From NCBI GenBank assembly GCA_030248135.1, contig JASANC010004154.1:26431-90430 (forward strand): a stretch of DNA of 64,000 bases, written 5' to 3'. A model generated the notes under the pieces. It was not told the origin of the DNA. It did not search any database and worked only from the letters and a program-made list of their open reading frames with translations. Below are positions 8,061-34,455 of this stretch, in pieces. This DNA is from Theristus sp. LFF4_11. Taxonomy: Eukaryota > Nematoda > Chromadorea > Monhysterida > Xyalidae. The translations under genes were made by a program, and so were the position numbers. Within the stretch, counting starts at the first letter, position 1. Each line of letters starts with the position of its first letter.

Positions 8061-8611
8061 ATGCAAGTGAAAACTGTACTGATCGTGTTCGTTCTTTGCA
8101 CGATGGCATTGATTGCGGTGCATGCGTCAAGCTCTGAAGAACCAGGTAGTGCAGGTTGATTTGATCTGCGTAATTTTTGCAGGTGACGGTTTTTTCGATA
8201 GACAAACGGTCGAGTCAGGTTCTACTAAAGGGGCATTCATGAAGCAGTATGTAGTGACCGCTCAGCTATTTTTTAGCACAGCTACGCGTCACTAAATACT
8301 TTAAATACTGACCGAACCACGCTGGGTCCACCGAGCGCGCACATACTGCAGAATGCGCCTCCGTTTGGTGTTCCCATTGAAACTCAATCACCATCATACC
8401 GGAATGTAACTGTGCTGCGCAAAAGTTCGCCTGTAACTTTCCGAGAAAACCACGTTTGCTTTGTCCAACTGCAGAAGGCTGCATGACCGCCGACGGGACG
8501 CTATTGAACTTTGGAGAAGAGAAAATCACGGACGGCTTGCGTGAGTTCTGCGACGAGGACGGGCTCGTCACGAACTGGCTGTCGGCGGAAGATGGGGAAC
8601 TCGAGAACTGA
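8061..8611 (+). CDS. Small secreted protein
   Basis: Exon 1 (8061-8145) encodes a clear signal peptide, MQVKTVLIVFVLCTMALIAV, followed by HASSSEEP. A 36-nt exon (8183-8218, phase 1-1) and a last exon (8475-8611, TGA) complete about 86 residues. The mature part has a GCMTADGTLLNFGEE...FCDEDGLVTNW core with two cysteines about 25 residues apart. This faintly resembles the short Cys-framed repeats of nematode MIG-18-like extracellular proteins, but the similarity is too weak to name it. Intron 1 is only 37 nt. The second intron contains a dispersed repeat fragment (8232-8290). The product is probably extracellular. Confidence 0.6.
8232..8290 (-). repeat. Short dispersed repeat, also at 59640
   Basis: The reverse complement (TAGCTGAGCGGTCACTACAT and onward) matches the block at 59645-59695 with few differences. 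It is intronic in both places. Confidence 0.55.
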
Positions 8612-8906
8612 GAGCGAAGGGCAAGAAAAAGACAGCTAACACGCACGTCACTATGACAAAACTGTGCAAAGTAACCGCTGAAAAACATTGTTTTCTATTA
8701 TTGTGTCAATTAAAAAAACTGTAAAAAACACTGATTGCTAGGCAACCTCCCTGCTACTGTTGTCAACTTCTGTGGCCCACATCAGAAATAAAATGAATCT
8801 TTTTAATTTTGCGCTCAAACTATTGAATAAGGCACTAAGAGCGAACCAATTTCTTCAATCGACGAAACGTTCAAACATCAAGCGGAAATAATCAAATATT
8901 GCAGTT

Positions 8907-14278: not shown

Positions 14279-14321
14279 TGCAGACTAACTGACGATGTTG
14301 TCGATTTGCAACGGGTAACTG

Positions 14322-15145
14322 TGTCGTGAAAACGACGGGACCGAGAGATTTGTAATCCGAATACAGGAGAAATATGTTCCTGTATTACCATCGAATTACA
14401 AATCCACAGGGTGACGCTTTCGTAACACGATGCACAACGCTGGCAAAGTTCACCGTGGCTGCGTGAGATAAAGCAGCACGGTGAATACGCTTGAAGCCTC
14501 GTAGTGCATCAACAACAATGGTCTTTGAGAAAAACACTTGGGGTGTATTTTGCTCTTAGACCTTTAGAAACCACTTTTTCCAGGGAAAATTAATGGGACT
14601 GAAAAAGGGGAATCTGACTTTGAATACATTTAGAGCGATTTCAAAAGAATTAGAAAGTCAGATTCTCCCAGTTTGGGAAATGCGGGGGCACTTTTTCTTT
14701 TTGGTGAACTTTAGGGCTGCGGTGGATTGCCGTTCTTCCGATCTCCCTTTTGTTAACCTTTCGTAAGCAACCTTTTGAATTTGTGTTTTTGATTGTTATT
14801 CTTTCTCAACGTGAGAACTGCCGGGGCGAACGCGAATTCATTATTTCTCGGATTACTGTAATTTAGGCCTTTTTACCAGCTGGATTGACAAGAAATTTCA
14901 TTCGCAACTTCATTCTCAATTTCTCTCTCAACCGTATTTTGTACTTGTTGTGCTATATACTTGTGTATTTTTGTGTTTACCTTGTATACTGACTTAGTGC
15001 TTCGACGCCAAGTCGGTGTTATTACCCAGTGTCTTATCGTACCATAACTCGGACTTAAACGTCCTTTTTGTAATATCAACGCTGATTCCTAGTCGTGATC
15101 TGTGACTGATATTAAAGCGGCCACAGGCAGTCAGAGTTCACGACA
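14322..15145 (+). repeat. 5' LTR
   Basis: It begins TGTCGTGAAAACGACGGG and ends AGAGTTCACGACA. TATATA at 14954-14959 is a candidate promoter element and ATTAAA at 15111-15116 a candidate poly(A) signal, which would put R near 14985-15130. Two inverted repeats in the upstream part could fold: 14347-14356 with 14395-14404 (enclosing 14360-14368 with 14378-14386), and 14607-14621 with 14654-14669. A spliced-leader-like motif lies at 15012-15034. Confidence 0.95.
14954..14959 (+). promoter_or_regulatory. Candidate TATA box of the LTR
   Basis: TATATA lies 190 bp before the LTR end, followed by an AT-poor stretch suited to a start near 14985. The same sequence is at the matching place in the 3' LTR. 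Inferred from position only. Confidence 0.4.
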
Positions 15146-16298
15146 AGTGGTGACCACGCTGGGAGACAACGCATTGTCTCCTGATTAGTTTTCTTTGTCT
15201 TGTTGTTTTGTTTTTTCTGTTGTTCTAGTAATTATATCCACGTCTGCTACGTTTGTTAATTTCATTAGAACATAATTCGCATTTTAAGTGACTTGTTATA
15301 TAATCTTCATACAGTTGTCTCTTCACAGTGTAGACAGAACGACAAGTATTCCGCATCGAGCGTCAAGTAAGTGTTAGCCTGTTAAGCCTGGTAGTTAGTA
15401 AGTAAGCCTGTTAAGTATCAGGTGTACCGTAGTTTATATCAAGCCTTGCACACATCCGGCTTTGAATCTACAATACTTTTGCTCTTTTTGTTCACGCCAG
15501 TACACAACGGTTGAGCTCACCCGTCTGCTTGAATATAAAATATCTGGATTTCCTACTGCACCGATCATTGTTTGTTCATTTTTTCTGATACAAGCATCTC
15601 CGCTCTAGTGCTTTCTTACACTTACGGTATCTGTGATATTGTAAATATTTTGCGATTTGGATTTCTATAAAAGATTTTTAAATTTGCAAATCTATATAAT
15701 TTTGTCATTCATCTCTTTGGTCATTTGAAACTGAGAACCTATCTGTTTTACTCTCTTAAATCTGATTTGCACCTGATTGTCTTCTTAAATCAGCAACCTT
15801 TTCATCTTACTTTTTAATCCTTTGGACGGTAACAGCCGGGTTTTTTCGGTCTTGCATTTGCCGCTCCTGTGTCTCTCTCTAGTCTGCACCCGCGAAATTG
15901 CTCATCTAACCTTTTATTTATTTATCAAATAAATTATTGATATTATTTATTTATTATTTAAATCTTTATCAATTATATAATTAACCATATTTATTATTTA
16001 TAAGTCTATTGATCTTGTTTATTTTGTCGCTTTTTGCTGGAACTGCGTATTCCTTTCTAATATTGCAACAGCGCGCATAGGCAACCAAGACGAATTAAAT
16101 TTTTTATCTATTATAGTCACCACTACAGCAGATTAACGACAACTGACAACCGGTGCACACGAAGGGCGACTCGCGCGTGGCACTAACCAAACAGCAAGGC
16201 GTGAAGGTTCTGCTAGATCGATCTGGTGTTCCTCGAGCGAGTTTTTCTTGCTTTTTCTTTGTCGTTGAATTTGAAGTTTGTGCAGTCAGCATTGAATC
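15146..16298 (+). other. Long untranslated leader of the retroelement
   Basis: 1153 bp between LTR and first ATG, AT-rich, with pyrimidine-rich and TTTATTTAT tracts around 15900-16020 and no long plus-strand ORF. It probably holds packaging signals and any splice donor for subgenomic RNA. That is inference; no element was identified. Confidence 0.6.
15148..15165 (+). promoter_or_regulatory. Primer-binding site
   Basis: TGGTGACCACGCTGGGAG starts two bases after the 5' LTR. It begins TGG, as expected for pairing with a tRNA 3' CCA end. The primer tRNA cannot be assigned without the host tRNA set. Confidence 0.75.
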
Positions 16299-19200
16299 AT
16301 GAGTAAGCAGGATCAGTCAGGCTCAGGCAAAGGTCAGGGTGGATCAAAAGTAAAACCTGAGTCAGAAGATTATTCTGATCAAGATAATGAGAGCGGTGAG
16401 ACGCCAGGAATGCCTAGTTCGGCTAAGTACTCTCGAATGTACGGTAGAACTAGAAGGTACGCCATGACATTCTTGAGAAACCGGGGCCATATTTCACCGC
16501 TGTCTTCTTTTGATCAGAGTAAGGAATCGATAGAAAGTTTTCTGGGAAAGTTGCTCAAAAGGGAAGAAACTGCCTCTCGGAATGCTGAGTCTCTGACTTA
16601 TTATTTCGATAAGTTGTCAACGATTGTGACAGAATGGGAGTGCTATCTCACAAAACTGGAAGAAGATAGCACATGTTCCAAAGATTTGAAAAATGCCGAA
16701 ATCGGCATTTATGAAAGGGCCAAAAAGGGGCTGGATGGACAATTAGGCTTTGAAGAAGTTTTTGCGCGTGTGACACGAGGCCTGCAAGAATGGCAACAAC
16801 ATTTGTCTACCATCCACACATTGCAGCAAACGTTGCACGCCGACAAAAACGACAGTCAGAGCCAAAGTGTTGCTGAGGCTGGTCACACTGGTAGTTCTAG
16901 TATTCCGGCTAATCTGCCAGGAAGTAGTGGAAAATTGGTTCCGGTTTCAGTTCCTTCAAGTTCTGATAACCAAGCTGCATCTGAGGCTTTGACTTCGATG
17001 CGGTGGAATTACCCAGTTTCATGTCAAAACAACTATTTGCCAATGGCAACAAATTTGATTTCATCAACTGGTGTCACATCAACGTGTAACCAGATAGCTG
17101 GTTCACAAAACGACTTTCAGAGTCGAAGTCAACAATCTCAAGTTGCAGGAAATTTGGCAGCATCCGGTGTTATCATGTCCTCTAACATGGATACCTATAA
17201 CTTTGCGCCAGTATCGACTGTCGATACATCCGCAGCACTTGTGCCATACCAAACGCAGGTGGTTCCAAACAATTATCTGCTTTATGGTACAGACCCGATG
17301 GGCTATGGCACATCGGCCATGAACCAGCCGAATGTGATTGAAAGTGGACCTTTTTGGTCGTCCACTAATGACAGACAACCATTCATGATGGAACAAGGGC
17401 CTTATTTCTTTAACTCGGCCACACCTGGTTCCTTTTTGCATGGTCAGCAGTTGCCTGTCAACTGTCACGTACCAAATTTTTCGGTACCACCTCCACCGGT
17501 CACCGCCAGTACAATGGGATTCCATGGCGCCTTTTCGCCATCATTCCTGCCAACCACCGGCCAATCGTATGTTCCATACAGAACTGGACATACGGCATTT
17601 CAAACGGGCAACCAAGCCGATCACGGCTTTCCTGGAATGGCAAGATCTGTTGGGGCTGGCGTACCGCCAATGGAACAACGCTTTCAGAACATGAAGTTCC
17701 ATGTTCCGTCAGTACGTCCTTGCACCTTCGACGGCACTGATGACATGGAATTCCCAGCTTTCTGGGACATGTTCCTGGCAACGGTGGAAAGAAACCCGGA
17801 ATTAAGTCCGGTCATAAAATTTTCCATCTTGCATGGATTACTGAAAGGCGATCCAAAACGTCTAATAATGGGACTACCCATAACAGACGCAAATTACGCG
17901 ATCGCTCTGAATATTCTGTACAATCGGTACGGAAATAAACAAAGGATAAGGAACAAGATCCAACATGAATTAGCAGGCATTCCGCCTGCCAAGTTGGATT
18001 TGAAGTCCTTGAACAAGACGCTCACTGCAATTCAAGCGTGCGTACTGAAGTTGTTGACTAGTCAACAACCTGCAAACCATTTTCTGATCGTAAAAGCGAT
18101 TATGGAAAAATTTCCATCTGAAATAATAGAGCAGGTTTCAGCCACAAAACCGGTTAATGCCGAATGGCAAACACACCCGTTGATTCACGCCTTAAGCGAT
18201 GTCATTCGACGTCGCGAAGAGCTTGTTGACTTATCACTGGAGCGTGTTGAGGCCAACAAACGTTGGGCTACTTATCGGCGTCAATGGGAACGACCGGAAA
18301 GAATTAGTAAACCAAAGACAGTGATTCGCGAACGCAAATCACCTTCACGTGAGCGATCAACTAGTTCAAGGCCAGCTAGTTCTCGCAATTCTAGCGCTCG
18401 TCGCTTTTCATCTCCTGGTATCTCCAGTGAAAATGAAGCGACTATTTTTGTGACTGAAACTGCTTCGCGAGAGAAATCTCCACAGCCAACCGGGAAAGTA
18501 AAAGAAAAATCAATAAAACCATCCACCACTAGGGTCGATAACAATGATTCTCAAAATAAAGGTTCCAATTCTAAAACATCGGCAACTAAATTAAAAGTAA
18601 AGACTGGCAAAGCTAAGCGGAAGCCGACCGGCACCAAGTTGCCTCGACCTTGCGCTTATTGTAGTGAAAATCACCGTCACATTGACTGCAGAAAATATCA
18701 AACAGTTAAACAACGGTTAGCCCGATTAACGGAAACAAAACGTTGCCTTATCTGTTTGGAAACCGGTCATATGGCGTCCAAATGTACCGTACGCAATGTA
18801 CGTGTCTGCAGTTTTTGCAAAGGCAAAAACCATCATATGAGTTTGTGTTTTCGTCACGAACGCATCAATAAAAGTAAAAGGGCAGATGATTCAGACAATT
18901 CAAAAATTTCTGTTTCTGCACCTTGCATATCTGATCAAAAATCATCATCAGATGATGACGTCACGAATCAGAGCGGCTCAGAATCAGACGACTCTAGCGC
19001 TTCGCATGAAATCAGTGAAAGTGCCGCAGCGTCTGAACAAGATCATGGCGAAACAGTTGCTACTGTCTGCAATGAACACGAAGCACAATTATTAACAGCT
19101 CAAGTGTTCCTTTGCTCTGAAAAATCCGCAAATAATTCAGTTGGAGCCACTGCTCTAATTGATAGTGGATCATGTAGAACTTGGGTCACACCAGGGTTAG

Positions 19201-22200
19201 TTGAAGAACTAAACCTTGAGGTAACTGAATTTGGTAATTTGTCAGTCAGACCATTCCGAACGAAGAATAACCAGCAACCATGTTATTCTATACCAGATAA
19301 AAGAGTCAGTCTGTGTATCAAATTACCTGATGATTCACATCTAAAAGTCACAGCAAATGTAGCGCCGACCGAGAAAATGGTAGGTCGAATTTTTATGCGT
19401 CCATTGTCCAAAACCGATTTGCAATTCATATATGATGCACGAATCGACAATCAAATGGGCATCAATCTCAACGACACAATGGTGTCTCAACATCCGGACG
19501 TGATTTTGGGAATGAATTGTTTTTCCGCTATCATGTTCGGAAATCTGAACGATCCATTTTCAGCTCCAATGATTAAGCTGCCAAGTGGATTGCTGTTGAT
19601 GAACACGCAACTGGGCTATATCATTGTTGGCTCAGATTCGGAAAAACCATCACCGTCACCGTTAACTCTGCTTCCTCTTCTAAACGATGACGCAGATATT
19701 GACATGACCGTCAATCCAAACCAATTGATCCGCTTCAGCGGAGCAAAATCAAATCGATCGCGTCAAGCAAGTTTCTCTTTCACAGATGATTCTTGTGGTG
19801 TTTTACCCAATGTCTTACACACTCAGCCTGAAAATTCAACATCTGAATTGAATGAAGCCTTAACGACTTCATTCAACGATTTTCAATGTCTAGAAGCAAT
19901 TGGTATTTCTGATAGAGCAAGTAAATCAGAAGATCAAATTGCTACAGAGTGCTTTCAAGAAAAAACAAAGTTTGTTCACGACCCAGTAACAAACGACCAA
20001 CGAGTCGAGGTTCCTTTTCCACCTCGACCTGGATCAACAGCAGTGCCAGACAACCGAGGTCTGGCTTATGCGCGATTCCAATCAATTCGTCGCAAATTGC
20101 TGGAAAACCCCTCACTTTTCGAACGATATCACAAAGGGTTTTTAGAACTCTTAGAAAAGGGTATAATCGAACCGGTGTCAGAAGATGAAATTTTAAAGGA
20201 AGGCAAAATTCATTTTTTGGCACATCACCCGGTTTACCGCGAAGACCATGCAACCACAAAACAACGCACGGTTTTCGACTTTTCTGCTCGAGCGGGACCA
20301 GAAGAGCTTGCGTTAAACGACGTCTTCTTGAGAGGTGATCCGTGTATCGCCGACTTGGGCAAAACGTTAATTCGCGCTCGCGAATATCCAATTTTATTGA
20401 TAGCTGACATCATGAAAGCTTTTCTCATGGTCAGTATACCAAACGAAAATCGAAAACTAACAAATTTCTTTTGGATAGATTCGTTAGAAAGCCAAGAAAT
20501 CAAAGTTTACGCATTTCGGCGTTTACCATTTGGTTTAACTTCGGCACCAGCATGTTTGGCTTACGCCATTAAATTCCTGATTGATCACAAAGGTGGTCCG
20601 TGGACAAAATACTGCAAAGATCACTTTTATGTCGATAATTTAATAACCGGCGTTGATGCTGTTGACGATGCCTTAGCATTGTACGCAGAAATCACAGAGG
20701 TGTTCCAAGAACATGCTTCATTCACTCTTCGAGAATGGCAAAGCAACTCGAAAGAGTTTATGAAAAGCGTGGACCAGTCCTTGTGCATGCAAGATTCAGA
20801 CACAAAGGTGCTGGGCCTTAAATGGCACTCCGTCACAGACATACTACGTCTCCCGAAAATTTCAGTTCCAAAAGGACTGAAAAATTGGACTAAAAGATCT
20901 GTATTGTCTGTTGTCAACTCATGTTTTGACCCTCTGGGTTTCGCAGCACCCATAATTCTGCCAGCCAAACTTTTACTACAAAAGTTGGCGCTGGAGAATC
21001 TAGATTGGGACACGCCAATACCCGATTCGTTGGCTTCCGAATGGGAAAAATTGATCCCAGACTTGGAAATGCTGAATCAATTGGAAGTTCCCAGATATTT
21101 GGGCAACGTAATCAAAAACTGTGAACGACAAATTCACGTCTTTGCAGACGCGAGTGCGTTTTGTTATGCCGCAGTCGTTTACTTACGACTTACAGATCGC
21201 ATATCAGGTCAAGAAACAACACACCTGATAATGGCAAAGTCACGCCTCAATCCAAATCCACGCAATCCTTTGTCGATTGTTAGGATGGAACTGATGGCGC
21301 TTCTAATTGCAACTAGACTCATTCACTACGTGCGCCAAGCAATGAGTGATGGAGACTCAATACCCGCTTTCACTTGGTCAGACAATCAGTGCGTCTTACA
21401 CTGGTTGCGATCTTCAAAACATTTAGGTGTTTTCGTTGGCAATAGAATCAAAGAAATTCGAAATTGCCCGAACACCAAAAACTATTTTTTACGTTCGCAT
21501 CACAACATCGGCGATGTTATGACACGCCCATCAGTCAAAGTCACTGACTTGATGGAAAGCGAATGGTTCAACGGTCCTTCATGGCTTCGCAAAGAAACAG
21601 AATGGCCGAATGAAGAACTACCTTTGATGTCTCAAGACATAAAGAACTTGGTGGAAAAGGAATTCCGCAAAAGCGCGGTAAATCCTAAATTAACGACACT
21701 TGATGAAGAGAGAGCTGACATAATCGTCAGTCCCGCTCAAACTAATCAAGAAACTAACGTCTGGAACGACCTTATCTTACGAGCATCTCAATTGCTCCGA
21801 TTGTTGCATACGGTCGTTTACGTGCTAAGATTTTTGAAAATCAAACTCTGGCAGCATGTGAAACCTGAGACCAAATCCAAATTCAACTATTTGGAAACAA
21901 TCTTTAAGCGAATTCAAACAGGAGCTATTCAAACATCAGAGTTGAGACTTGCTCATGACTTTCTTTTAAGTCATAGCCAACGTTTGTCTCACCCAGAATT
22001 GTTTGATGCACTCGAAAATGACAAAACCCACACTTTGGTCACACAATTGCAATTGTTTCTCGACCAAAATGGAGTTTTGCGATGTCAAAGTCGCGTCACG
22101 GATAAAGACGATCTGCCTCTCAGATCTAAATATCCGAAATTCTTGCCAAAAACAAGTCCTCTCACGGACTTGATAATCAACTACTTGCATCATAAAACTA

Positions 22201-25200: not shown

Positions 25201-27974
25201 TTCATTTACCAAAGAATCGCTACTGCTGGAGTATTTTGAACTGCCGCTTAAAACAAACCGATCACAGATTAGGAGTTCTGAATGGCAAAGGAAGATGCGT
25301 TCTGCACCACGGTGCCTGTGTTTGTCCTAGTTGGGCGACTGACTGCTCGCGTAGTGTAGACCATATTCCTAAAGGTATCGGCAAACCTAAAGACGTGCTA
25401 TCTGCGCTTAAACCAAATTTTTGCTCTCTTCAACCGCATAAACTTTGCAGCAATAAAAGCGAAACCGCATGGTGGTACAAGATTTTGCTTTATGACGGTT
25501 CGATTCACTACGTGACATCTTTACAAATCAAAACAGACAATGTAATTGAAGATCAGTATGTTTGTGTAGGAAATCAAAAATCAGTCAATGTTACTGGCAC
25601 CAATGCGTTTTGCCAATCTCACTTTTGTAAAAACAAACCAACTGATAAAATTTGTTATTATAAAAATATTTTGCCAACTTTTTTAGTAAGTCCTCTAGGT
25701 TCAGTTCCGATTGCCGCATGGGGACTGCAAAAAGTTTCGTTTTTTGGAGATAAACCCGCGCATAATCCTCTCGCTCAACAAAATAACCAAATTTCGTCTC
25801 AGTGCACAAATACAGGTTTATCACTTAATCCTCAAAGTACTGAAGAAATAAATTTCATAAAAATTTGCGTCGGTGTTTACTGTCATTCAACTGAAAATCC
25901 AAAACGTCAAAATTATAATTTTCCGCGAGATATTCTGATTCAACCCCACGTTTTCTTCATCAAAATTTGGTCAAGCGACAATGTAGTCAGTGAATCTCAA
26001 CTGAGTTGCGCAGCCAGCAATTTCTGTCATTTAGTTGACTGTTATTTATGTTTTGATTATTTAACTAATCCGTCTTGCGCTACTTTTGTTTATTCGGTTG
26101 TTCTTATTCTTATTTCATATTTTCTTGCATGCACCACTCTGTTAGTAATGTTTATTTTTAAAATTATTCTTGGTAAAATGTTTCAATTTTTACATACTAA
26201 CAGGCATGCACAACAACAACACTCACTCTTACCGTACCTTTGCGCGAATGTTTACCTATTGCTCTTGCTTCATGTTCATCTTTTTGCGTTAAAAGCCGGC
26301 GCGTGCAGTGAATTTGCTATTATTACCGTTAACAACGAGCATTGTGCCGTATCTGCTGATAATTCAATCGAATGTATCATTAAACAATCAACTCGTATTA
26401 ATCTAGCTCCTGAACATCAAACTGCTTGCCTCATTGTTTCTAATCGTCAAAATGACACTATTGGCAGCTTACAGATCCGCGTTCATGAACTTAGTTTATC
26501 TTGCGATAAAAAGGTTTTGTACTTCACCAGAGACGTAGACTTTGTCACCAATAGCATCAAAAGATGCCCATCCATGGGCTCCTGTTCCTATAAAAAATGT
26601 AACTCATTAAAACCAGATCAAGTAGTCGACGAATTTACAGCTGAATCCAGCAGCGCTCCCGGCTACAGCAGATGCGCAGCAGCACAGTCAGGCTGGTTTT
26701 CCGCCGACGGGGGCTGTTGGAGTTCTGGTTTCTCATGCTTGTTTTTTCGAAATTATGCAAAAGCCTTTTCTAACCATGTTTATGAGGTTTTTGAATGCCC
26801 GTCATTTAGCTTACAAGCGCAGCTTGACATAAAATTTAGTTCACAAACTAAAACCAGAGCTGTGCGCCTTCTGTTACCCGTGGCCTCTTCTGCTAAATGG
26901 AATTCTATGACCTTTCATCTGATTAGTAGTTTAAAGAAAGAAGTCTCTTTACTTTCAAATTCCAAATTTGTTATGAAAGATCGCAATAGTATGATTGTTA
27001 CCAAAGCCAGCGACGATGGTTCACCTATTCCTAATAAAGTAGGCGCATTTCAATGCAAAACTTTCAAGGACGCAGCTACAATGCATAAAACAAATTGTAT
27101 ATTTTCAAATAATGTATGTAATTGCCAACCTGCTGACGCATTACCCAATTGTCATTGTAATCAACACAATATTCTTAACTTGTTTTCTAAAAAAGAATTC
27201 AAGTTGCCAAAGATCAGTGCCGGGTTTACCATAATTCCAGATACTATGAGTTCAGTAACCGCAACATTTCAACAACATTCTTCTGTTGAATTACAAGTAG
27301 ATTTAACTGATTTGCGTCTAAAAATTAAAGTTCATAAAAACACATGTGCCATAATACCTAAACAATTACAAGGGTGTTATGGATGTTATAGTGCTGCCAC
27401 TTTTGAGTTTGTTTGTCAGACTAATTTTGGATTTGCAACTGCTTCGGTCGTCTGTAACGACGGTACGAGATTTATTACCGACTGTCAAAAACAAAACAAA
27501 ACAACTTTTGTTACGCTTCCTTTTTTTAAAGCTTCTATAGACACATTATGTAATGTTTCATGTCCTGCTGGCTCATCTACTTTTAAACTAACGGGTCAAC
27601 TCTACTTTATTCCGTTTTCACGCGTTTCCAATGTTTCTACCTCAATAATTACTCAAGGTGCTGATATCGGAGGCATGCGCTTATCAAATTTAGATTTCAC
27701 GTTTCTTACTTCTATTCTCAAATCGCACTGGTTTTGGGTTATTCTCGGAGTTGCCTCTGTGATACTTCTTTTATTGCTCACTTTCCCCCTTTTGCTTTCA
27801 TGCTTTTCTCTTGTGGGGAGCGCTGCTAACGCAGGTTTCGGTAAAATTAGAAATCAATCTCCTTTAAGTTTTTTGCACCCCCTCCCAAGCATCTTTTCTC
27901 ATTATGATTCTAATTCCAATCAAAATAAGTATCGTTTCGTAGATAATTTTAAACAAAGTTATGGTATTGAATGA
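16299..27974 (+). CDS. Gag-Pro-Pol-dUTPase-deoxynucleoside kinase-Env polyprotein (3891 aa)
   Basis: One uninterrupted frame. Approximate residues: 1-465 low-complexity N-terminus; 470-690 Gag (DUF1759); 785-850 zinc knuckles; aspartic protease with LIDSGS (D955); RT with D1370 and YVDN at 1444-1447; RNase H with D1617; integrase HHCC near 1964-2002 and catalytic D2035, D2100, E2155; DUF5641 about 2240-2348; two membrane spans 2423-2441 and 2453-2478; trimeric dUTPase 2494-2632 with all five motifs (GSAGFDVYA, PRSGLG, GLIDNDYRG, RFAQLIF, RGERGFGSTG); deoxynucleoside kinase about 2650-2850 (P-loop GNIGAGKSS 2656-2664, ERD 2734-2736, LID arginines 2790, 2794, 2796). The Env precursor starts with a signal-like segment at 2895-2914. 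Its first ectodomain ends in a span at 3263-3291. A second signal-like segment (3310-3334) opens a Cys-rich part resembling phlebovirus Gc, anchored at 3811-3840. Processing probably uses the element's protease and host signal peptidase (inference). No stop or frameshift separates Gag, Pol or Env. Confidence 0.93.
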   Translation: MSKQDQSGSGKGQGGSKVKPESEDYSDQDNESGETPGMPSSAKYSRMYGRTRRYAMTFLRNRGHISPLSSFDQSKESIESFLGKLLKREETASRNAESLTYYFDKLSTIVTEWECYLTKLEEDSTCSKDLKNAEIGIYERAKKGLDGQLGFEEVFARVTRGLQEWQQHLSTIHTLQQTLHADKNDSQSQSVAEAGHTGSSSIPANLPGSSGKLVPVSVPSSSDNQAASEALTSMRWNYPVSCQNNYLPMATNLISSTGVTSTCNQIAGSQNDFQSRSQQSQVAGNLAASGVIMSSNMDTYNFAPVSTVDTSAALVPYQTQVVPNNYLLYGTDPMGYGTSAMNQPNVIESGPFWSSTNDRQPFMMEQGPYFFNSATPGSFLHGQQLPVNCHVPNFSVPPPPVTASTMGFHGAFSPSFLPTTGQSYVPYRTGHTAFQTGNQADHGFPGMARSVGAGVPPMEQRFQNMKFHVPSVRPCTFDGTDDMEFPAFWDMFLATVERNPELSPVIKFSILHGLLKGDPKRLIMGLPITDANYAIALNILYNRYGNKQRIRNKIQHELAGIPPAKLDLKSLNKTLTAIQACVLKLLTSQQPANHFLIVKAIMEKFPSEIIEQVSATKPVNAEWQTHPLIHALSDVIRRREELVDLSLERVEANKRWATYRRQWERPERISKPKTVIRERKSPSRERSTSSRPASSRNSSARRFSSPGISSENEATIFVTETASREKSPQPTGKVKEKSIKPSTTRVDNNDSQNKGSNSKTSATKLKVKTGKAKRKPTGTKLPRPCAYCSENHRHIDCRKYQTVKQRLARLTETKRCLICLETGHMASKCTVRNVRVCSFCKGKNHHMSLCFRHERINKSKRADDSDNSKISVSAPCISDQKSSSDDDVTNQSGSESDDSSASHEISESAAASEQDHGETVATVCNEHEAQLLTAQVFLCSEKSANNSVGATALIDSGSCRTWVTPGLVEELNLEVTEFGNLSVRPFRTKNNQQPCYSIPDKRVSLCIKLPDDSHLKVTANVAPTEKMVGRIFMRPLSKTDLQFIYDARIDNQMGINLNDTMVSQHPDVILGMNCFSAIMFGNLNDPFSAPMIKLPSGLLLMNTQLGYIIVGSDSEKPSPSPLTLLPLLNDDADIDMTVNPNQLIRFSGAKSNRSRQASFSFTDDSCGVLPNVLHTQPENSTSELNEALTTSFNDFQCLEAIGISDRASKSEDQIATECFQEKTKFVHDPVTNDQRVEVPFPPRPGSTAVPDNRGLAYARFQSIRRKLLENPSLFERYHKGFLELLEKGIIEPVSEDEILKEGKIHFLAHHPVYREDHATTKQRTVFDFSARAGPEELALNDVFLRGDPCIADLGKTLIRAREYPILLIADIMKAFLMVSIPNENRKLTNFFWIDSLESQEIKVYAFRRLPFGLTSAPACLAYAIKFLIDHKGGPWTKYCKDHFYVDNLITGVDAVDDALALYAEITEVFQEHASFTLREWQSNSKEFMKSVDQSLCMQDSDTKVLGLKWHSVTDILRLPKISVPKGLKNWTKRSVLSVVNSCFDPLGFAAPIILPAKLLLQKLALENLDWDTPIPDSLASEWEKLIPDLEMLNQLEVPRYLGNVIKNCERQIHVFADASAFCYAAVVYLRLTDRISGQETTHLIMAKSRLNPNPRNPLSIVRMELMALLIATRLIHYVRQAMSDGDSIPAFTWSDNQCVLHWLRSSKHLGVFVGNRIKEIRNCPNTKNYFLRSHHNIGDVMTRPSVKVTDLMESEWFNGPSWLRKETEWPNEELPLMSQDIKNLVEKEFRKSAVNPKLTTLDEERADIIVSPAQTNQETNVWNDLILRASQLLRLLHTVVYVLRFLKIKLWQHVKPETKSKFNYLETIFKRIQTGAIQTSELRLAHDFLLSHSQRLSHPELFDALENDKTHTLVTQLQLFLDQNGVLRCQSRVTDKDDLPLRSKYPKFLPKTSPLTDLIINYLHHKTMHTSVQFVMAELNRGYWLPTARRVIKRVINTCVTCKRLRGPPFSLPKMAALPANRVTPSTVGSHMGVDLFGPTIVYDDCSCKQRIKLWIVLFTCFFSRSVFLDVVREISAQEFILALKRQISRVGAILTLTSDNAPNFVSTKGLWEVLQREKVNCEATVANITDFCSNNGIQWFFALPHFPQHGGVWERMCGIVKQALISAKGRKLLPVTQFRTVLSECEAIVNSRPITYVSNSLHEISALRPIDFWFPNALLGTPRVDTADIKAAYLPEWNNRESLLRFYAQSQEVVDRFWKLYVQLYLPQLREKQESSHRKGNRAVPSRQPMAGDVVIIRDDTLPRGVWKFGRIKKLIAGTDGQNRGAEVFGSSGRTLKRPLHLLYPLECAEMPNETEDQEDESEKDESEKLLESVQDSVASRTRSKTKEQPKVPVSILSQKSLEKGGRRRSRSLPSHRVRFNLPALTVGLIMTMLIQPSSASFESNAPEPKEWFCWLIMVFGSVAMTVVIANFLSRIMSNHKNRSKHQIIKEKQLIPVCLMSNKARLPVQTTDGSAGFDVYAIERTFIPPRSHVSLNTHLKLASPYTIMVCPRSGLGKKGVLPMSGLIDNDYRGEIKILMFNHTDKVQVINENERFAQLIFMESKSPRLKIEADLPSTARGERGFGSTGQTQISRNITQVDRTEPQSSVPWIALLGNIGAGKSSILASWQRSFTNVLCIPEDVEQWSNFGTHKINLLKRMYDFPETYAWMLHLLSMRTSFLENKSYDCQLIITERDLSFSKVFLDFYAQNMSRVAFELLGLHRSFLEHLQQRKPNLYLKVSCPLSTLPTRILQRNRNAEANICRTLLLSLEVKTAEFLDSSQTPFLSLANDSPTFPSDEFWAEKLEEICKTSNIPAPQRRLQNNPTVGTSDVQDCDKNERLPAPRLRRVERSSNLLSLFIFCFFSIILNINSVSAVDSRLVQLAKEALGGFFPQNNVSGSLCSRSVSNPKRLKIVESQLCVSRGIGIFHLPKNRYCWSILNCRLKQTDHRLGVLNGKGRCVLHHGACVCPSWATDCSRSVDHIPKGIGKPKDVLSALKPNFCSLQPHKLCSNKSETAWWYKILLYDGSIHYVTSLQIKTDNVIEDQYVCVGNQKSVNVTGTNAFCQSHFCKNKPTDKICYYKNILPTFLVSPLGSVPIAAWGLQKVSFFGDKPAHNPLAQQNNQISSQCTNTGLSLNPQSTEEINFIKICVGVYCHSTENPKRQNYNFPRDILIQPHVFFIKIWSSDNVVSESQLSCAASNFCHLVDCYLCFDYLTNPSCATFVYSVVLILISYFLACTTLLVMFIFKIILGKMFQFLHTNRHAQQQHSLLPYLCANVYLLLLLHVHLFALKAGACSEFAIITVNNEHCAVSADNSIECIIKQSTRINLAPEHQTACLIVSNRQNDTIGSLQIRVHELSLSCDKKVLYFTRDVDFVTNSIKRCPSMGSCSYKKCNSLKPDQVVDEFTAESSSAPGYSRCAAAQSGWFSADGGCWSSGFSCLFFRNYAKAFSNHVYEVFECPSFSLQAQLDIKFSSQTKTRAVRLLLPVASSAKWNSMTFHLISSLKKEVSLLSNSKFVMKDRNSMIVTKASDDGSPIPNKVGAFQCKTFKDAATMHKTNCIFSNNVCNCQPADALPNCHCNQHNILNLFSKKEFKLPKISAGFTIIPDTMSSVTATFQQHSSVELQVDLTDLRLKIKVHKNTCAIIPKQLQGCYGCYSAATFEFVCQTNFGFATASVVCNDGTRFITDCQKQNKTTFVTLPFFKASIDTLCNVSCPAGSSTFKLTGQLYFIPFSRVSNVSTSIITQGADIGGMRLSNLDFTFLTSILKSHWFWVILGVASVILLLLLTFPLLLSCFSLVGSAANAGFGKIRNQSPLSFLHPLPSIFSHYDSNSNQNKYRFVDNFKQSYGIE

Positions 27975-28035
27975 TTCTTGGTTATCTTCAATTTTAGCGA
28001 CTTCGAATTGAGTCATTCAAGACTACTCATTGCTT

Positions 28036-28219
28036 CAACAGACGATCACGACTGCCGTTCGTTTCGACCACGTGTACCAAACAACAGACGATCACGACTG
28101 CCGTTCGTTTCGACCACGTGTACCAAACAACAGACGATCACGACTGCCGTTGGTTGCGACCACCCGTGCCGAACAACAGACGATCTCAACCGCCGTCGTC
28201 TCGACTGTCCGTACCGCTA
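28036..28219 (+). repeat. Four tandem 46-bp repeats between the two ORFs
   Basis: Units start at 28036, 28082, 28128 and 28174. The first two are essentially identical (CAACAGACGATCACGACTGC...CACGTGTACC) and the last two are diverged. They fill most of the 303-bp gap between the polyprotein stop and the helicase ATG. Confidence 0.95.
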
Positions 28220-28255
28220 ACCGACAACTTTGCCGGCAACCTTCTTTGAAAGGCT

Positions 28256-28276
28256 GTCGGTGTTGTTACCCAGTGT
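28256..28276 (+). promoter_or_regulatory. Spliced-leader-like motif directly before the helicase ATG
   Basis: The motif GTCGGTGTTGTTACCCAGTG (28256-28275, plus one T) differs at one position from the copy in each LTR (15012-15032). The helicase ATG follows after one base. The core GGTGTTxTTACCCA resembles the nematode SL1 start GGTTTAATTACCCA. Its role is unknown. Confidence 0.55.
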
Positions 28277-28277
28277 A

Positions 28278-31200
28278 ATGTCAAACAAAACCCAATACAC
28301 CGCTATCGTGGTGAAATGCGCCGTGGACTCCGCAACCGTGTGGATGGATGAGCAAGCGGAAAAAAGAGCGACCGAAAGCCTGTTCGCAAACCGTCAAGTG
28401 CCTCGAGGAAAATATGGCGTGCTTGCTAAAGTTAGACTGGATTCTTTCACACGAAACATGCGAGAACAACACACGTCAGTCTACAAAATCGCACCTCTGG
28501 ACTTCATCATCACGTTCGACCACATGGAGATCAATCCGGAGAACGCCGACGAAGGCATTTTGATCAAAAACGTGTTCAAGATCCGTCGATCGGAAGATGT
28601 GCGTGGATTGGGAATCTTGATTTTGCCGACCGTGAAGGACGATCAACAACCTGATGAAGAAGACGCTAAGACCGGACTAGTCTGTGCCGGGTTTGGAAAG
28701 TCGCACCGTAAACTGGACCGTTACTGCATGTCGTTTCGAAATCGCCACATCAGTCCAGAATTTCGACATTTGAAGAAACAAGGCGCCATCGTATTCTGCT
28801 GCGCTGTGGAGTTGAAAAACATCATGAAGGAAGAAGTCCGTCGAGGTCTGAGGAGATCGAACGACCCACCAATCACCAAAAGAGCGTACTCGTTAAAATG
28901 GGCCGTACCACTTGAATCCAACGCCACTCGCAGCATTCGCCACTACGATGAAAACGGTCAAGGCATCCAAAGCCTTCAGATTTTCCGAAGATTTGTCGAA
29001 TTCTCAGTTGCAACAATCGTAAACGACTGTCATCTGGAAGCTCAACAGAAAGAAGAGAACGTCACCACTCGAGAAGTCGAATTTCGCAATGCTGGCAATC
29101 AACCAGGACCGCTGTCGTTGGATCTGGTCGCAGTCATCACATTGCCGAACAAACCGGTCAACTTCCGAACCGCCGACAGTGCTGCTATGTCCACTACGGA
29201 TTTGACTGGCCGACCGTTTCGTATCAACACGATGGTTCATGACACGGTGTTCGAAGATCTTCAGCAGAAGTTGGTGCTTGTACTCACGGTCAATCAGAGT
29301 ATGATTCTGCACGAGAAAGGCCTCACAAGAAACAAACGAACGTGGAAGATCGAAAGAATCATTGACACAGACATGGTGGCATTCCAAGTGCAGCTATTGC
29401 AACGGTCAGTGGACAAGTTCGCGAACAAACCGGAACCTCCATTCGACATCATTCCGAAGGTCTTCTTGCGAAGTGCTATTGAAAAACCGGAAAATCCGCT
29501 GAAGTTAGAACCGTTCGATCACGAATTTCTGAAGATTCCAGGAATGTCGCAGTTTCAAGCAAACGAAGTTCAAATTCAGGCAGCGCAGTTCATCCTGCAT
29601 CGAAAACCGAAGCTATGCACTATCATCGGGCCTCCAGGTACAGGGAAAAGCCAGTTTTGTGCCGCAACAATCTACCGTTTGATCAAGGAAAAGAAACGGG
29701 ACGACGAAACTTGCAAAGTGTTGGTCTGTAGTTCATCAAACACCGCAACTGACGCCGTAGCGATGAAAATCGCGGCCATTGCTAGAGCCGATGATCAAAG
29801 CGAACTAGCCGTACTTCGCGTCTTTTCGCCACAGCGAGAACGTTTGCCGCCAACGGACACGTATTCGTTTTCATTGCACGGACTCTCCACGGACATGTCG
29901 TTGCCGATCGAAGAAGACAAAGTGAACTTCGGAAATTTTGATGAAATTCAGGAGAAAAAGCGAAAACTGAACGTCAAGAAAGAACGATTACAAGCTTTGT
30001 TCGAACAATGGGAGAAAATGAAGGCTGAACGCACCAAAGAAGATGAATCAACGAGAAAAAGGCGAAACGAAATCAAAAAAGAAATGCTCGCACTGCAAAG
30101 CCAAATCAACGGTGAAATCAAAGAAACCGCTGAATTAGTGAAGGCAGTTGTTGATCCAGACGTTGTTTGCGCGACTCTCGACGGCGCACACGACAGTCGT
30201 CTGAAGGACGACGCTTTCGACTTCGTGTTCGTGGATGAAGCAGCGCACTCGAATGAGCACGAATTATACTTGAGCCTCATAAAAATGAGAATGAACAAGG
30301 CAGGAAACGGAACTGTGGTCTTCATTGGAGACTCGAATCAACTACCACCGATAATCTTCGCACCTGGAGAAGCAGGCAAGCTGATGGCGAAAACAGCACA
30401 CGAGCTACTCATTGACAGCAACAACGTGCCGGTGTTTATGTTGAGAACCCAGTATCGAATGCACCCGGAAATCGCTGAATTCCCCAACGAAGCAGTTTAC
30501 AAAGCACAGCTGCTGAACGGTGTATCAGCAAAAGAACGACAGCTCTCGTCAACCGGCTTCCCATTCCCCAAACAAGGAATTCCCATCGTGTTCGACTGGA
30601 TCGATGGCGCAGAATACATCGCAGAAGGCAAGTCGTTCGCGAACGATGAAGAAGCGGACGCTGTCGTCAACTATGTGACCTTCCTGCTGAAGCAACCTGA
30701 ATTTGCCGACTTCAAGAACTTCCGAATTCTGGCACTTTACAACGGTCAGAAGAAGGCCATTATCAATCGGCTTTTGGCAAAAGAAATCAACCCGCCGCCG
30801 TCCCTGGTGATGACGGCGGACATGAGCCAAGGAAGCGAGGAAGAACTAATCATATTGTCGGGCGTGCGATGCCAGCAAGACGCAAAGAAGCCGAACGTCG
30901 GTTTCCTGCGTGACTTCCGCCGCATCAACATGATGCTGACGAGGGCCCGGTCAGGCTTAATAGTCACTGGCCACGTGCCGACCCTTCGCGGCTCCGAAAT
31001 CTTCCGTCGCTTCATCCTTCATTGCGACCGCAAGGGGGTCGTTTACCACGGCTACCACACGCACCTGGCGGAGGAACTCAGGCGGCCATGGTTCGACGCA
31101 GCGGGTAAAAGCGCGATCGCGGCAGAGAGGGCCGATATCGGGACCTTCGAGGCAGTAGAGTCGGCTACAGTTTCGGCGAACGTCAATCATGGGCTAGCGA

Positions 31201-31577
31201 CAGCAATGATTGACCTAGACGCCCTGAAATTGACGGAGGCCGATGAGCCTGCGCCAGACACCTTCGAGACATCATCGGACGAGCCAGCCGCCGAAGCGCC
31301 CAGCGTCACAGCAGAGTCATCGACAGATGAACCATCAGTCGTACCCATGGCTCACCTGCCAACGTCAAGCGCCGACACACCGTCAACATCAACTGCTCCA
31401 ACAGCCATGTCGGCGGAGGACTTCCCGGTGCTCCATCCAGAGCCGGCTGCCGAAGGACAATGGATCGTTGTTCGCGGAAATCGTGGCAAATCCAGAGGTC
31501 GTGGCAATTCGCGGAAGTCATACGCGCGACCGTCCATCTCGACCGACCCACCAACAAAGAAGTCGCACACCGAATGA
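28278..31577 (+). CDS. UPF1-like superfamily 1 helicase carried by the retroelement
   Basis: The protein is about 1099 residues from the ATG at 28278, which I prefer because the leader-like motif ends there; an in-frame ATG at 28230 would add 16. Counted from 28230: motif I GPPGTGKS at 467-474, motif II DEAAHS at 669, motif III GDSNQLPP at 700, YRMHPE at 742, SQGSEEE at 866, TRARSG at 904. A charged, probably coiled-coil insertion (about 570-635) lies between motifs I and II, as in several UPF1-type helicases. The N-terminal 430 residues match no domain I can name. The tail is Pro/Ser/Thr/Glu-rich and ends in an RG-rich patch. These motifs predict ATP-dependent RNA or DNA unwinding (family knowledge). 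Its place between the LTRs shows it moves with the element. Base composition is more GC-rich than the polyprotein, suggesting later capture (inference). Confidence 0.93.
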   Translation: MSNKTQYTAIVVKCAVDSATVWMDEQAEKRATESLFANRQVPRGKYGVLAKVRLDSFTRNMREQHTSVYKIAPLDFIITFDHMEINPENADEGILIKNVFKIRRSEDVRGLGILILPTVKDDQQPDEEDAKTGLVCAGFGKSHRKLDRYCMSFRNRHISPEFRHLKKQGAIVFCCAVELKNIMKEEVRRGLRRSNDPPITKRAYSLKWAVPLESNATRSIRHYDENGQGIQSLQIFRRFVEFSVATIVNDCHLEAQQKEENVTTREVEFRNAGNQPGPLSLDLVAVITLPNKPVNFRTADSAAMSTTDLTGRPFRINTMVHDTVFEDLQQKLVLVLTVNQSMILHEKGLTRNKRTWKIERIIDTDMVAFQVQLLQRSVDKFANKPEPPFDIIPKVFLRSAIEKPENPLKLEPFDHEFLKIPGMSQFQANEVQIQAAQFILHRKPKLCTIIGPPGTGKSQFCAATIYRLIKEKKRDDETCKVLVCSSSNTATDAVAMKIAAIARADDQSELAVLRVFSPQRERLPPTDTYSFSLHGLSTDMSLPIEEDKVNFGNFDEIQEKKRKLNVKKERLQALFEQWEKMKAERTKEDESTRKRRNEIKKEMLALQSQINGEIKETAELVKAVVDPDVVCATLDGAHDSRLKDDAFDFVFVDEAAHSNEHELYLSLIKMRMNKAGNGTVVFIGDSNQLPPIIFAPGEAGKLMAKTAHELLIDSNNVPVFMLRTQYRMHPEIAEFPNEAVYKAQLLNGVSAKERQLSSTGFPFPKQGIPIVFDWIDGAEYIAEGKSFANDEEADAVVNYVTFLLKQPEFADFKNFRILALYNGQKKAIINRLLAKEINPPPSLVMTADMSQGSEEELIILSGVRCQQDAKKPNVGFLRDFRRINMMLTRARSGLIVTGHVPTLRGSEIFRRFILHCDRKGVVYHGYHTHLAEELRRPWFDAAGKSAIAAERADIGTFEAVESATVSANVNHGLATAMIDLDALKLTEADEPAPDTFETSSDEPAAEAPSVTAESSTDEPSVVPMAHLPTSSADTPSTSTAPTAMSAEDFPVLHPEPAAEGQWIVVRGNRGKSRGRGNSRKSYARPSISTDPPTKKSHTE

Positions 31578-31985
31578 GGCCGCCGTCATCAAATAGCCGT
31601 CAATAACAAATTTCGTAAGTTTGCTTGGTGCTTTACGTTCTGTTATTAATAGTGTTTCAGATAAAATTGAGGTTCTTATTTTATTTCACCTTTTAAAGCA
31701 CATCTCTTTACCGGATTAGATCAGAACAATAATGGGTTCAAATTCTGATATCTTTTTTGACTTTTCAGCTGGTCTCATGAGTGCTCGACATTCTTGAGAT
31801 GGTTTTTACCCAGTGTATTAACTCTAAAACAAACCTGAATTGGCTCTGTTCGGTGCAAATATAGAATCACCTGTTTTACAGGAGTCATCAACTTAAATGC
31901 ATGAACGCGCATATCGACACGACACACTCGACACCGGTGGTCACGCCAACATCACCAAAGCCATTCGTACTTACTACGTCAATGA

Positions 31986-32282
31986 TTCAGTTGCCCTTCG
32001 CTGGACGCGCGCCATCGTCCGTCCACCGCTTGGACACCAACTACGTCACAACTCCGCTCTGACTACTCAACGCTCGTCAACAGCTACAACTCGCGCGTCA
32101 ATATGCCAATCGTAAACTCCTGCCCGTGGTGTCATCAAACATCACACGACGTGAACCACCTATTCTTGTGTGCGCAACAACTTCCCGACTTCACAGCAAC
32201 AACGCTCTGGTGCGATTCAGCCAATGCTGCATGCTTCCTAGGTCTACCTACGAACCCGATCAATACAACATCTGGTCAATGA
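31986..32282 (+). pseudogene. Fragment of a non-LTR reverse transcriptase C-terminus
   Basis: The frame reads TSQLRSDYSTLVNSYNSRVN followed by CPWCHQTSHDVNHLFLC, the zinc-binding end (CxxC...HxxxHxxxC) found after the RT of Jockey/CR1-type elements. It is preceded and ended by stops and has no RT core. It lies inside the LTR element between helicase and 3' LTR. Confidence 0.65.
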
Positions 32283-32407
32283 GCAACAACAACACATTTT
32301 TCGACACTCAATTTGAACTACAGTCGTCAATTCATCAACACGCATACCGACACAAACCATTTAACACTCAATTGGAACTTCCGTTTCAACTTGAATTTCA
32401 GTAGATA

Positions 32408-32702
32408 TTGCTTGTGACACCGTATCATTCTTGTCTTGAATGTTGCCTATGACGCCGTATCATCTTGTCTCGAATTTTGCTTGTGACATCATTGCGTGTC
32501 GGATTTTGCATGTTTCTCGGAATTGATTGGTAATTCGCGCTATTCTGATTATCATTTCTCCCTTTGCACCCTCGATTAGCGGAGATCTTATCATTTTTGA
32601 GAAAAGCAACTTCTAGTAGACGAATAATCTTGCCTTGATTGAGAATGCCTGTCGTGAACTTTGAAGATAACGCCGTGTCATTCGTGTCTTGAGTTTTGCA
32701 AA
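32408..32702 (+). repeat. Degenerate short repeats in the 3' noncoding region
   Basis: A block of the form TGACxCCGTATCATxCTTGT ending in TTTTGC recurs with changes at 32413, 32450, 32482 and 32668. Spacing is 32-37 bp for the first three. Confidence 0.55.
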
Positions 32703-33167
32703 TAATTTTTATTGCTAGTTCCCAGTTTTCAGTGCGGATGCATTGCTGTCTTTTTTTATCCATTTCTATCCTGCTGGTCGTAGGTCATTCAAATTTGAGC
32801 GCTCTGCCATATCGCGACTGTGGCCTGATTGTTTCCATCTGATTTATTGGAATTTTGGGATTTATTGGCGCTATTCCCTTGGTTTGAAATTGGATCCCAA
32901 AAATAAAAATCAATGCTGACGATTTTCAATTGCATGACGAAGGATTCTTTGTTTGCATGGTAAGACATTGGGTAACAACACCGTGCCCCTTTCAAAGAAG
33001 AGACACTGCGAGTTGAAGTTAGTTGCGCACCTTCAACCAACCTTTCTAATGTTTTGCCTTGATGACGCGTCGCGTCATATTGCAAACGATCTCCTTTGGA
33101 CACACGATGAGAAAATAACTAAAATTTTCTATTCGTTCAAAATTTTCCTATTCCTTGTGGGCGGAGT

Positions 33168-33991
33168 TGTCGTGAAAACGACGGGACCGAGAGATTTGTA
33201 ATCCGAATACAGGAGAAATATGTTCCTGTATTACCATCGAATTACAAATCCACAGGGTGACGCTTTCGTAACACGATGCACAACGCTGGCAAAGTTCACC
33301 GTGGCTGCGTGAGATAAAGCAGCACGGTGAATACGCTTGAAGCCTCGTAGTGCATCAACAACAATGGTCTTTGAGAAAAACACTTGGGGTGTATTTTGCT
33401 CTTAGACCTTTAGAAACCACTTTTTCCAGGGAAAATTAATGGGACTGAAAAAGGGGAATCTGACTTTGAATACATTTAGAGCGATTTCAAAAGAATTAGA
33501 AAGTCAGATTCTCCCAGTTTGGGAAATGCGGGGGCACTTTTTCTTTTTGGTGAACTTTAGGGCTGCGGTGGATTGCCGTTCTTCCGATCTCCCTTTTGTT
33601 AACCTTTCGTAAGCAACCTTTTGAATTTGTGTTTTTGATTGTTATTCTTTCTCAACGTGAGAACTGCCGGGGCGAACGCGAATTCATTATTTCTCGGATT
33701 ACTGTAATTTAGGCCTTTTTACCAGCTGGATTGACAAGAAATTTCATTCGCAACTTCATTCTCAATTTCTCTCTCAACCGTATTTTGTACTTGTTGTGCT
33801 ATATACTTGTGTATTTTTGTGTTTACCTTGTATACTGACTTAGTGCTTCGACGCCAAGTCGGTGTTATTACCCAGTGTCTTATCGTACCATAACTCGGAC
33901 TTAAACGTCCTTTTTGTAATATCAACGCTGATTCCTAGTCGTGATCTGTGACTGATATTAAAGCGGCCACAGGCAGTCAGAGTTCACGACA
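33168..33991 (+). repeat. 3' LTR
   Basis: Same length (824 bp) and, by eye, the same sequence as the 5' LTR, ending TTCACGACA before the AACTG duplication. It carries the same TATATA, ATTAAA and leader-like motif. Confidence 0.95.
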
Positions 33992-34455
33992 AACTGACGA
34001 AATGTTATTTTTCGAACGCAATCCGCTACCGGTTTCTCTTTGCAGTTCTGCAAATCTCGCCCCCTAATCGGGGTCAGCTATCCGTTCTCCTTGCAACCGT
34101 CCCTCCTCGCTCCCCACACCTACACGGTCACTGCCCAGTCTTTGTTTTCAATTTATTGAACGTGCTGCCCTGGAAACCAATAAACGCAAAATTGATTTGA
34201 TTTGAAACAAAAAATTGGATAGCATTGGGTGGCAAAAATAACAAAATGGGTCGGTTGTATGCCCGAAAACAGCATTTTACGCTGCTCAAAATCACTAATT
34301 TTGATGTATTTCCTATTTTGAGCTCAAGAAGCCAAGTTCTGGAAAGTTTAGGAGCTGGGAAGCATTCGGTTTTTATGGTTTTAAAACGGTTTTAAAACGG
34401 AAAAGAAACCGTTTTTTTCCTGGCAATATAAAAACCGGTTTTTTTACCAACCCTA

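Follow-up and report, generated by a model that had tools for sequence, protein, structure and literature searches.

A stretch of 64,000 nucleotides from the genome of the nematode Theristus sp. LFF4_11 (contig JASANC010004154.1, positions 26,431 to 90,430; hereafter the window) contains a single long terminal repeat (LTR) element of 19,670 bp (14322-33991), in which a Pao-type gag-pol is combined with a dUTPase, a deoxynucleoside kinase (dNK), an envelope and a UPF1-like superfamily 1 (SF1) helicase. The preliminary description of this DNA had proposed a single BEL/Pao-type element with this gene content, and the LTRs, domain profiles and motifs presented here support that proposal. We consider it somewhat more probable than not that, in this BEL/Pao-type giant, the kinase and the dUTPase supply clean deoxynucleoside triphosphates (dNTPs) and that the helicase unwinds or protects the long RNA during reverse transcription.

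The LTRs (14322..15145 and 33168..33991; these and all element features below lie on the + strand unless stated otherwise) measure 824 bp each and terminate in a 9-bp inverted repeat (TGTCGTGAA...TTCACGACA), and there is no difference between them over 824 bp, which indicates a recent insertion. The element is bordered by the target-site duplication AACTG (14317..14321 and 33992..33996), and its flanks match a repeat copy located at about 9789..9916 over 45 bases (95.6%) and 88 bases (97.7%); this copy is uninterrupted and has AACTG once at the junction, and thus represents a paralogous empty site. The paired LTRs, the duplication and the readable empty site reported previously are borne out by these comparisons, as is the location of both long open reading frames (ORFs), with 3,892 and 1,118 open codons, between the LTRs. 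On its contig (C2646, 90,430 bp) the element occupies 40752-60421, and the contig continues beyond it on both sides. Two bases past the 5' LTR lies the primer-binding site TGGTGACCACGCTGGGA (15148..15164), which is perfectly complementary to the 3' terminus of the host tRNA-Arg(ACG) plus CCA. The 14-base tRNA end TCCCAGCGTGGTCA occurs at 25 genome sites versus 2 in a backward control; among four sites inspected, C45 and C541, which were chosen for the absence of the next C, are tRNA-Arg(ACG) genes ending there, and neither of the remaining two is a tRNA gene. It is very improbable, in the light of this structure, that the element is a composite or a misassembly in which nested elements or a host helicase gene were falsely joined between LTRs, because the identical LTRs, the one duplication, the empty site and a continuous 11.7-kb frame all speak for one insertion, a repeat comparison within the window revealed no further LTR copy inside the element, and a relic described below holds helicase sequence between pieces of the same LTR. 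Such an explanation draws on the occurrence of the full gene set in one copy and on the rearranged appearance of several related loci (C68, C436, C2022 and C1424).

ORF1 (16299..27974; the frame opens at 16296 and its first ATG is at 16299) specifies, in this order, Gag, protease, Pao-type reverse transcriptase (RT) and RNase H, integrase, dUTPase, dNK and a phlebovirus-Gc-like envelope. Pfam profiles, with which ORF1 was scanned in pieces together with ORF2, located DUF1759 in the Gag region (17742..18149; E 9.5e-20), and two CCHC-type zinc knuckles following it (18744-18785 and 18807-18848) as well as an aspartic-protease-like DSGS motif (19161..19172) were recognized by eye. The RT piece (19899..20849) contains the YVDN active-site motif and a match to RVT_1 that falls below the curated cut-off (E 1.2e-4); downstream of it, as is characteristic of BEL/Pao pol, lies the Pao-specific profile Peptidase_A17 (20889..21383; E 7.8e-46). 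The integrase (21900..23030) is marked by Integrase_H2C2 (E 6.3e-8), an rve core match below the curated cut-off (E 2.7e-5) and the D, D and E residues, and is followed by DUF5641 (23040..23336; E 8.8e-12). The gene order and the short duplication are likewise those of BEL/Pao elements, with the protease recognized by motif only and RNase H having no profile score of its own. Alignment of the window RT with three Ty3-type proteins is poor, reaching 35 bits at most, and none was obtained with a Ty1-type protein; a search of viral contigs with this RT confirmed nothing.

The remainder of ORF1 opens with the dUTPase domain (23808..24185; E 1.4e-29), whose five motifs can be discerned by eye, followed by the dNK domain (24255..24815; E 4.5e-15). 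The latter has a P-loop (GNIGAGKS), ERD as its ER(S/D) motif and the LID arginines, a combination that points to a dNK, and its nearest solved chains are named deoxynucleoside kinase, including 1j90, the Drosophila enzyme. Further downstream, an envelope N-terminal region that is Gn-like by position and contains a hydrophobic, signal-like stretch (24891..26303) precedes a Gc-like, class II fusion domain (26304..27299; Phlebovirus_G2, E 1e-73), for which the best solved match is 7a4a (E 4.3e-43), the Gc of Atlas virus. Judged from the Pao profile, the YVDN motif in RT and an envelope nearest to Atlas Gc, the element belongs with BEL/Pao. More specifically, a YVDN-type RT together with a phlebovirus-like envelope is the combination by which nematode belpaoviruses of the Atlas and Cer13 type are recognized in the available text of PMC9094657.

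ORF2 (28278..31577 from its first ATG; frame open at 28221-31577) contains AAA_11 (29559-30359; E 2.6e-36) and AAA_12 (30393-30974; E 5.2e-41), with intact helicase motifs GPPGTGKS, DEAA, QYRMHP, SQGSEEE and NMMLTRAR. Among solved chains, 24 sequences matched it at E <= 0.001, the nearest being NAM7/UPF1 (best 1.7e-46), and its predicted fold, modeled on a 13-row alignment of the window sequence with 12 of its 28 public-protein matches, resembled UPF1 best, the nidovirus helicase (nsp13) appearing first at rank 42 and far more weakly. Those 28 matches are distant SF1 helicases only (best 1.4e-13). The SF1B core motifs and the nearest solved relatives point to a UPF1-like SF1 helicase, preceded by about 410 N-terminal residues with no Pfam match before residue 443 and a predicted local distance difference test (pLDDT) score below 50 for residues 1-409. 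Taken together, the Pfam matches of the two frames lie well outside chance expectation; PHROGs and NCBIfam contributed nothing beyond broad families of helicases, dUTPases and kinases. The likeness of this gene set to that of a large DNA virus, which had been put forward earlier, holds in a functional sense only: the element is equipped with LTRs, a primer site for tRNA, RT and integrase, its kinase is nearest to dNK chains and its helicase to cellular UPF1/NAM7. An origin from a DNA virus was rejected, as no DNA polymerase, capsid or packaging genes are among the Pfam matches of the ORF1 pieces and ORF2.

Several parts of this gene set are already known separately. Retroviruses, too, are among the carriers of dUTPase. 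When the dUTPase-dNK piece was compared with public proteins, all four matches (P0031-P0034) were dUTPase-bearing Ty3-/Ty1-type polyproteins, which resemble the window element in having dUTPase within a retroelement polyprotein but differ in that none of the four lists a dNK domain; these searches require shared 5-residue words and similar length and did not reach proteins of more than 1,750 residues, so that an absence from them weighs little. Nidovirus nsp13 likewise represents the UPF1-like SF1 type; it is encoded by RNA genomes of unusual length and has been linked with that length, although nidoviruses are RNA viruses without reverse transcription. A close counterpart of the element is Atlas virus, an endogenous belpaovirus of Ancylostoma ceylanicum, which shares with it BEL/Pao affiliation, identical LTRs, a single Gag-Pol-Env frame, YVDN in RT and a phlebovirus-like Gc, but which has 9,204 nt, 271-nt LTRs and a product of 2,828 residues; the main text of its account, as available, has no mention of helicase or dUTPase and mentions kinase once, as CDK4 (PMC9094657). 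Burro, a giant (>30 kb) planarian element, also has a very long polyprotein, a dUTPase-like domain and env homology, but it is Ty3/gypsy-like, with its dUTPase between protease and RT, and no helicase or nucleoside kinase of Burro is named in the available text, where the three mentions of helicase concern Helitrons, Megavirales and Teratorn and kinase is absent (PMC6431247). Insect long interspersed nuclear elements (LINEs; TRAS) and Ty1/copia fusions have kept SF1 helicases with conserved motifs within retrotransposons; these are of RNA-virus type, not UPF1-like, and kinase, dUTPase and envelope go unmentioned in the text available (PMC5563155). Such an envelope in BEL elements, dUTPase in retroelements and SF1 helicases in LINEs or copia elements are therefore not new in themselves (PMC9094657, PMC6431247 and PMC5563155, respectively, each in the text available). 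The available part of PMC7264820 contains no mention of helicase, dUTPase or kinase. In the open-licence literature, in which the slash term BEL/Pao is not searchable, no published account was found that describes a dNK within an LTR element, a UPF1-like helicase gene in BEL or Ty3 elements, or the full set. The earlier remark that no LTR element was known to unite two nucleotide enzymes with an SF1 helicase stands as far as this partial literature extends, and is to be qualified by the separate precedents for dUTPase, envelopes and other SF1 helicases.

Further evidence comes from relatives in the same genome, whose sequences indicate that the family did not acquire the helicase recently. The helicase search returned 16 matches, namely the window, C1974 (39%, residues 19-507), C68 (48%), C3364 (47%), C2490 (81%), seven small pieces spread over C1395, C553 and C1073, three Ty3-like loci considered below, and C2160 (26%). 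In relic C2490, a helicase piece of 112 codons (83% identical) lies between window-type LTR pieces (90% and 73%), with a third LTR piece (75%) farther away, and over these codons it differs from the window helicase by 0.82 silent changes per site versus 0.11 amino-acid-changing ones. The LTR search as a whole gave seven pieces at 72-90% besides the two LTRs of the element. In C1974, a Gag-like piece occurs upstream of the helicase piece on the same strand, and another one on the opposite strand. Every one of the BEL-type helicase pieces is incomplete as a gene, and stops occur in some of them. A one-off capture of the helicase by the window element is ruled out by the relics C2490, C1974, C68 and C3364 together with the Ty3-like parallels.

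Closer relatives of the pol region show a different gene complement. The RT search gave 37 matches, with the window at 100%, C68, C436, C2022 and C1046 at 69% and the rest at 27-39%, and with three further short pieces on C68 at 51-68%. Together with C374, whose contig begins at the kinase, these four loci constitute group B, in which the principal stretches in common that were compared show 99.0-100% identity; the C2022 copy is interrupted inside its envelope. The dUTPase search, with 16 matches, gave none on the group B contigs. The kinase is kept in four of the five loci (at 52% in C436, C1046 and C2022, and in two pieces of 66% and 47% with one stop in C374), the kinase search having given no match in C68, and between the window and C2022 it has accumulated 0.81 silent versus 0.36 amino-acid-changing differences. 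In C1046, C374 and C436, compared without delimited LTRs, the similarity that they share stops at a single point about 1.2 kb past the envelope frame, and no helicase precedes that point. The preliminary description had regarded family members lacking helicase, kinase and dUTPase as damaging to its reading, and had looked to further full-length copies sharing the gene order as a check on it: group B was found without dUTPase and sense helicase and yet retains the kinase in most loci, and the complete set is intact in one copy only, accompanied by older helicase-bearing relics. Group B also has a second Gn-like block (27.9%) between integrase and kinase, at the place of the window dUTPase (L031:7685-8734 and L029:4503-5552). 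Within C68 (L055:2725-3726) a reversed helicase fragment (49%) takes the place of dNK and envelope between pol and the 3' end, an arrangement that looks as if template switching had joined helicase-bearing and helicase-less elements. A tandem array of about 149-bp units in two blocks, with inverted pieces, occurs at C436:10001-20000 (L034) and reflects a rearranged copy or an assembly error. The variable gene set among these relatives, with neither dUTPase nor sense helicase found in group B, might suggest that the extra genes are passengers, host or viral genes caught by chance and devoid of any role, since the pick-up of stray genes does occur in LTR elements (PMC6431247, available text). 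We nevertheless judge this very improbable, given that the frames are open, their motifs intact and silent differences in excess, that helicase pieces persist in several diverged relics, and that a like pair is present in three Ty3-like elements.

In these three loci (C1424, C2275 and C2356) a Ty3-like pol is followed by a kinase ORF and then by a UPF1-like helicase ORF. The element at C2275 is of full length (18,802 bp), with identical LTRs of 724 bp, a CGGT duplication and the primer-site-like sequence TGGTAGCACCGACCC. In both C1424 and C2275 the RT_RNaseH/RT_RNaseH_2 profiles and those of the integrase follow the Ty3 order, rve being below the cut-off in each, and the C1424 pol aligns with three Ty3-type proteins at 294-345 bits; C2356, the ends of which were not reached, is assigned to Ty3 only because it matches the final part of the C1424 pol at 75%. 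The presence of a Gag-like piece on the other strand of C1424 implies that this copy or its assembly is rearranged. No envelope was recognized in the three loci. Their kinases are 57-61% alike and their helicases 37-46%, and the Ty3-like dNK had six matches among public proteins. Two of these elements share a conserved ORF (31%) downstream of the helicase (L041:9073-9729 and L040:1698-2144), of which the L041 ORF has no Pfam match. The window helicase is 27% identical to that of C1424 over 507 residues, and the kinases of the two types are 22-29% identical. It is possible, although we would not favor it, that the kinase-helicase pair moved as a unit between Ty3-like and BEL elements instead of being acquired twice. 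The window helicase scores 130-143 bits with the three Ty3-like ones and 163 with human UPF1, as opposed to at most 102 with the other ten compared, and the best trees of the helicase (15 rows) and of the kinase (14 rows) both place BEL and Ty3-like copies together. However, support for these groupings is weak (69/63 and 43/4, respectively), flags were raised for long branches and unusual composition, the kinases have diverged widely, and the gene order differs, as the Ty3-like elements have both genes as separate ORFs after pol whereas in the window the kinase is part of ORF1 and the helicase is ORF2.

With respect to function, nucleoside kinase and dUTPase are suited to making DNA in surroundings poor in dNTPs and rich in dUTP. 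The dNK and dUTPase of the window element are accordingly predicted to provide clean dNTPs, while the helicase would clear structure and proteins from the RNA of about 19 kb, or protect it, as it is copied into DNA; in this way the extra genes may relieve limits that dNTP supply, template structure and RNA decay set to copying an RNA of this length. The ORF1 and ORF2 proteins are presumably made and active, and the envelope may allow the element to leave cells. The leader (15146..16298) has no ATG in 1,153 nt, which is the case in only 2 of 630 stretches of this length (median, 18 ATGs), sampled on either strand of the window and including those that overlap the leader. ATG is also absent between the end of ORF1 and the first ATG of ORF2, a gap that contains a 46-bp tandem repeat in 3.7 copies (28036..28205), as in 24 of 1,274 stretches of gap length. 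Together with GTAAGT donor-like sites at 15367 and 15398 and an acceptor-like ATTTTAG just past the ORF1 stop, ending at about 27997, this fits a scheme in which ORF1 would be translated by scanning from unspliced full-length RNA and ORF2 from spliced RNA. The exact pattern of the canonical spliced leader 1 (SL1) had no match in the genome search.

A serious rival is that the helicase mainly antagonizes host RNA control, be it nonsense-mediated decay or RNA silencing, with a UPF1-like protein occupying the RNA or host partners and saving the 19-kb RNA from destruction after an early stop; both roles may be true, and as a principal role we rate this one as the less probable. In its favor, the ORF1 stop would precede 5-6 kb of transcript, long 3' untranslated regions being sensed by UPF1 (PMC3484045, available text), the helicase resembles UPF1 more closely than it does the helicases of viruses, and no UPF2-binding N-terminal region was recognized by Pfam, as in a possible decoy; moreover, SF1 helicases of insect LINEs reportedly suppress RNA silencing (PMC5563155, available text). 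Conversely, the ATPase/helicase motifs are retained beyond the needs of a decoy, and an action on RNA control by itself leaves the pairing with a nucleotide kinase unexplained. A role of the extra genes in replication is preferred because the pairing of kinase with helicase is seen again in a second superfamily, the elements measuring 18.8 and 19.7 kb. Several observations detract from this preference. UPF1-type helicases act in RNA decay too, so that replication is one of two roles, and the helicase model is confident in the core only (mean pLDDT 49) and poor outside it. As group B was found without dUTPase and sense helicase, neither is needed in every member, and since Burro exceeds 30 kb with no helicase named in the available account (PMC6431247), large size alone does not require one. 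Silent sites are saturated, a ratio of amino-acid-changing to silent change (0.15) being obtainable for the Ty3-like kinase only. The gap before ORF2 is weaker evidence than the leader, because simulated sequences of its own composition lack ATG in 15% of cases (1% at window composition). Finally, in view of the weakly supported trees, a single transfer and two captures are both possible, and the term convergent is unsupported.

The kinase-helicase combination is likely to matter for retroelements of this size. More tentatively, these elements might represent an unrecognized grade of reverse-transcribing giants with envelopes, at which BEL/Pao and Ty3 lines arrived independently, and which passed the usual range of about 10 kb by means of a UPF1-like helicase and a dNTP supply of their own; this would parallel, by analogy, the helicase acquisition linked with long RNA-virus genomes, no envelope having been recognized in the Ty3-like members. 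In this regard, one genome holds two giants, the window element and C2275, whose LTRs remain identical, and the limit on the length of reverse-transcribed genomes becomes testable, either as copying eased by helicase and dNTPs or as escape from host RNA control. In the parts of the literature available, human immunodeficiency virus 1 (HIV-1) is described as using host helicases and encoding none (PMC3484045), and in the cases of gene capture covered by one review the material between LTRs is seldom more than 10 kb, with Burro and Ogre as exceptions (PMC6431247).

Other loci in this genome contain related enzymes. In C1377 (L037:5704-6363 and 6759-7205) a dNK-like ORF (22-23% identical to the Ty3-like dNK) neighbors a dUTPase-like ORF with no recognized retroelement around them, and C64 and C3220 have matches to dNK and dUTPase within about 3 kb, perhaps as part of another mobile element or as host genes. 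In C2160 and C3402 (L038:5632-6159 and 6682-9999; L039) a dUTPase ORF adjoins an ORF of more than 1,100 codons, with a Maverick- or linear-plasmid-like look, a DNA_pol_B_2 match being found in the long ORF of L038 only. A piece of an RNA-dependent RNA polymerase gene adjoins the relative C1046, which fits a nematode host without being specific. Within the window element, the 3' non-coding region (31578..33167) contains pieces of two dispersed repeats (about 32045-32297 and 32491-32649), the second of which has more than 30 copies, 84-87% identical, among the matches listed. Elsewhere in the window, an inverted repeat of 1.1 kb (98%) with a short spacer occupies 1-2410, several direct and inverted repeats (78-88% alike) cluster at 43481-45847, and a 305-codon ORF at 37313-38230, which may be a remnant of another retroelement, matches RVT_1 weakly and under the cut-off.

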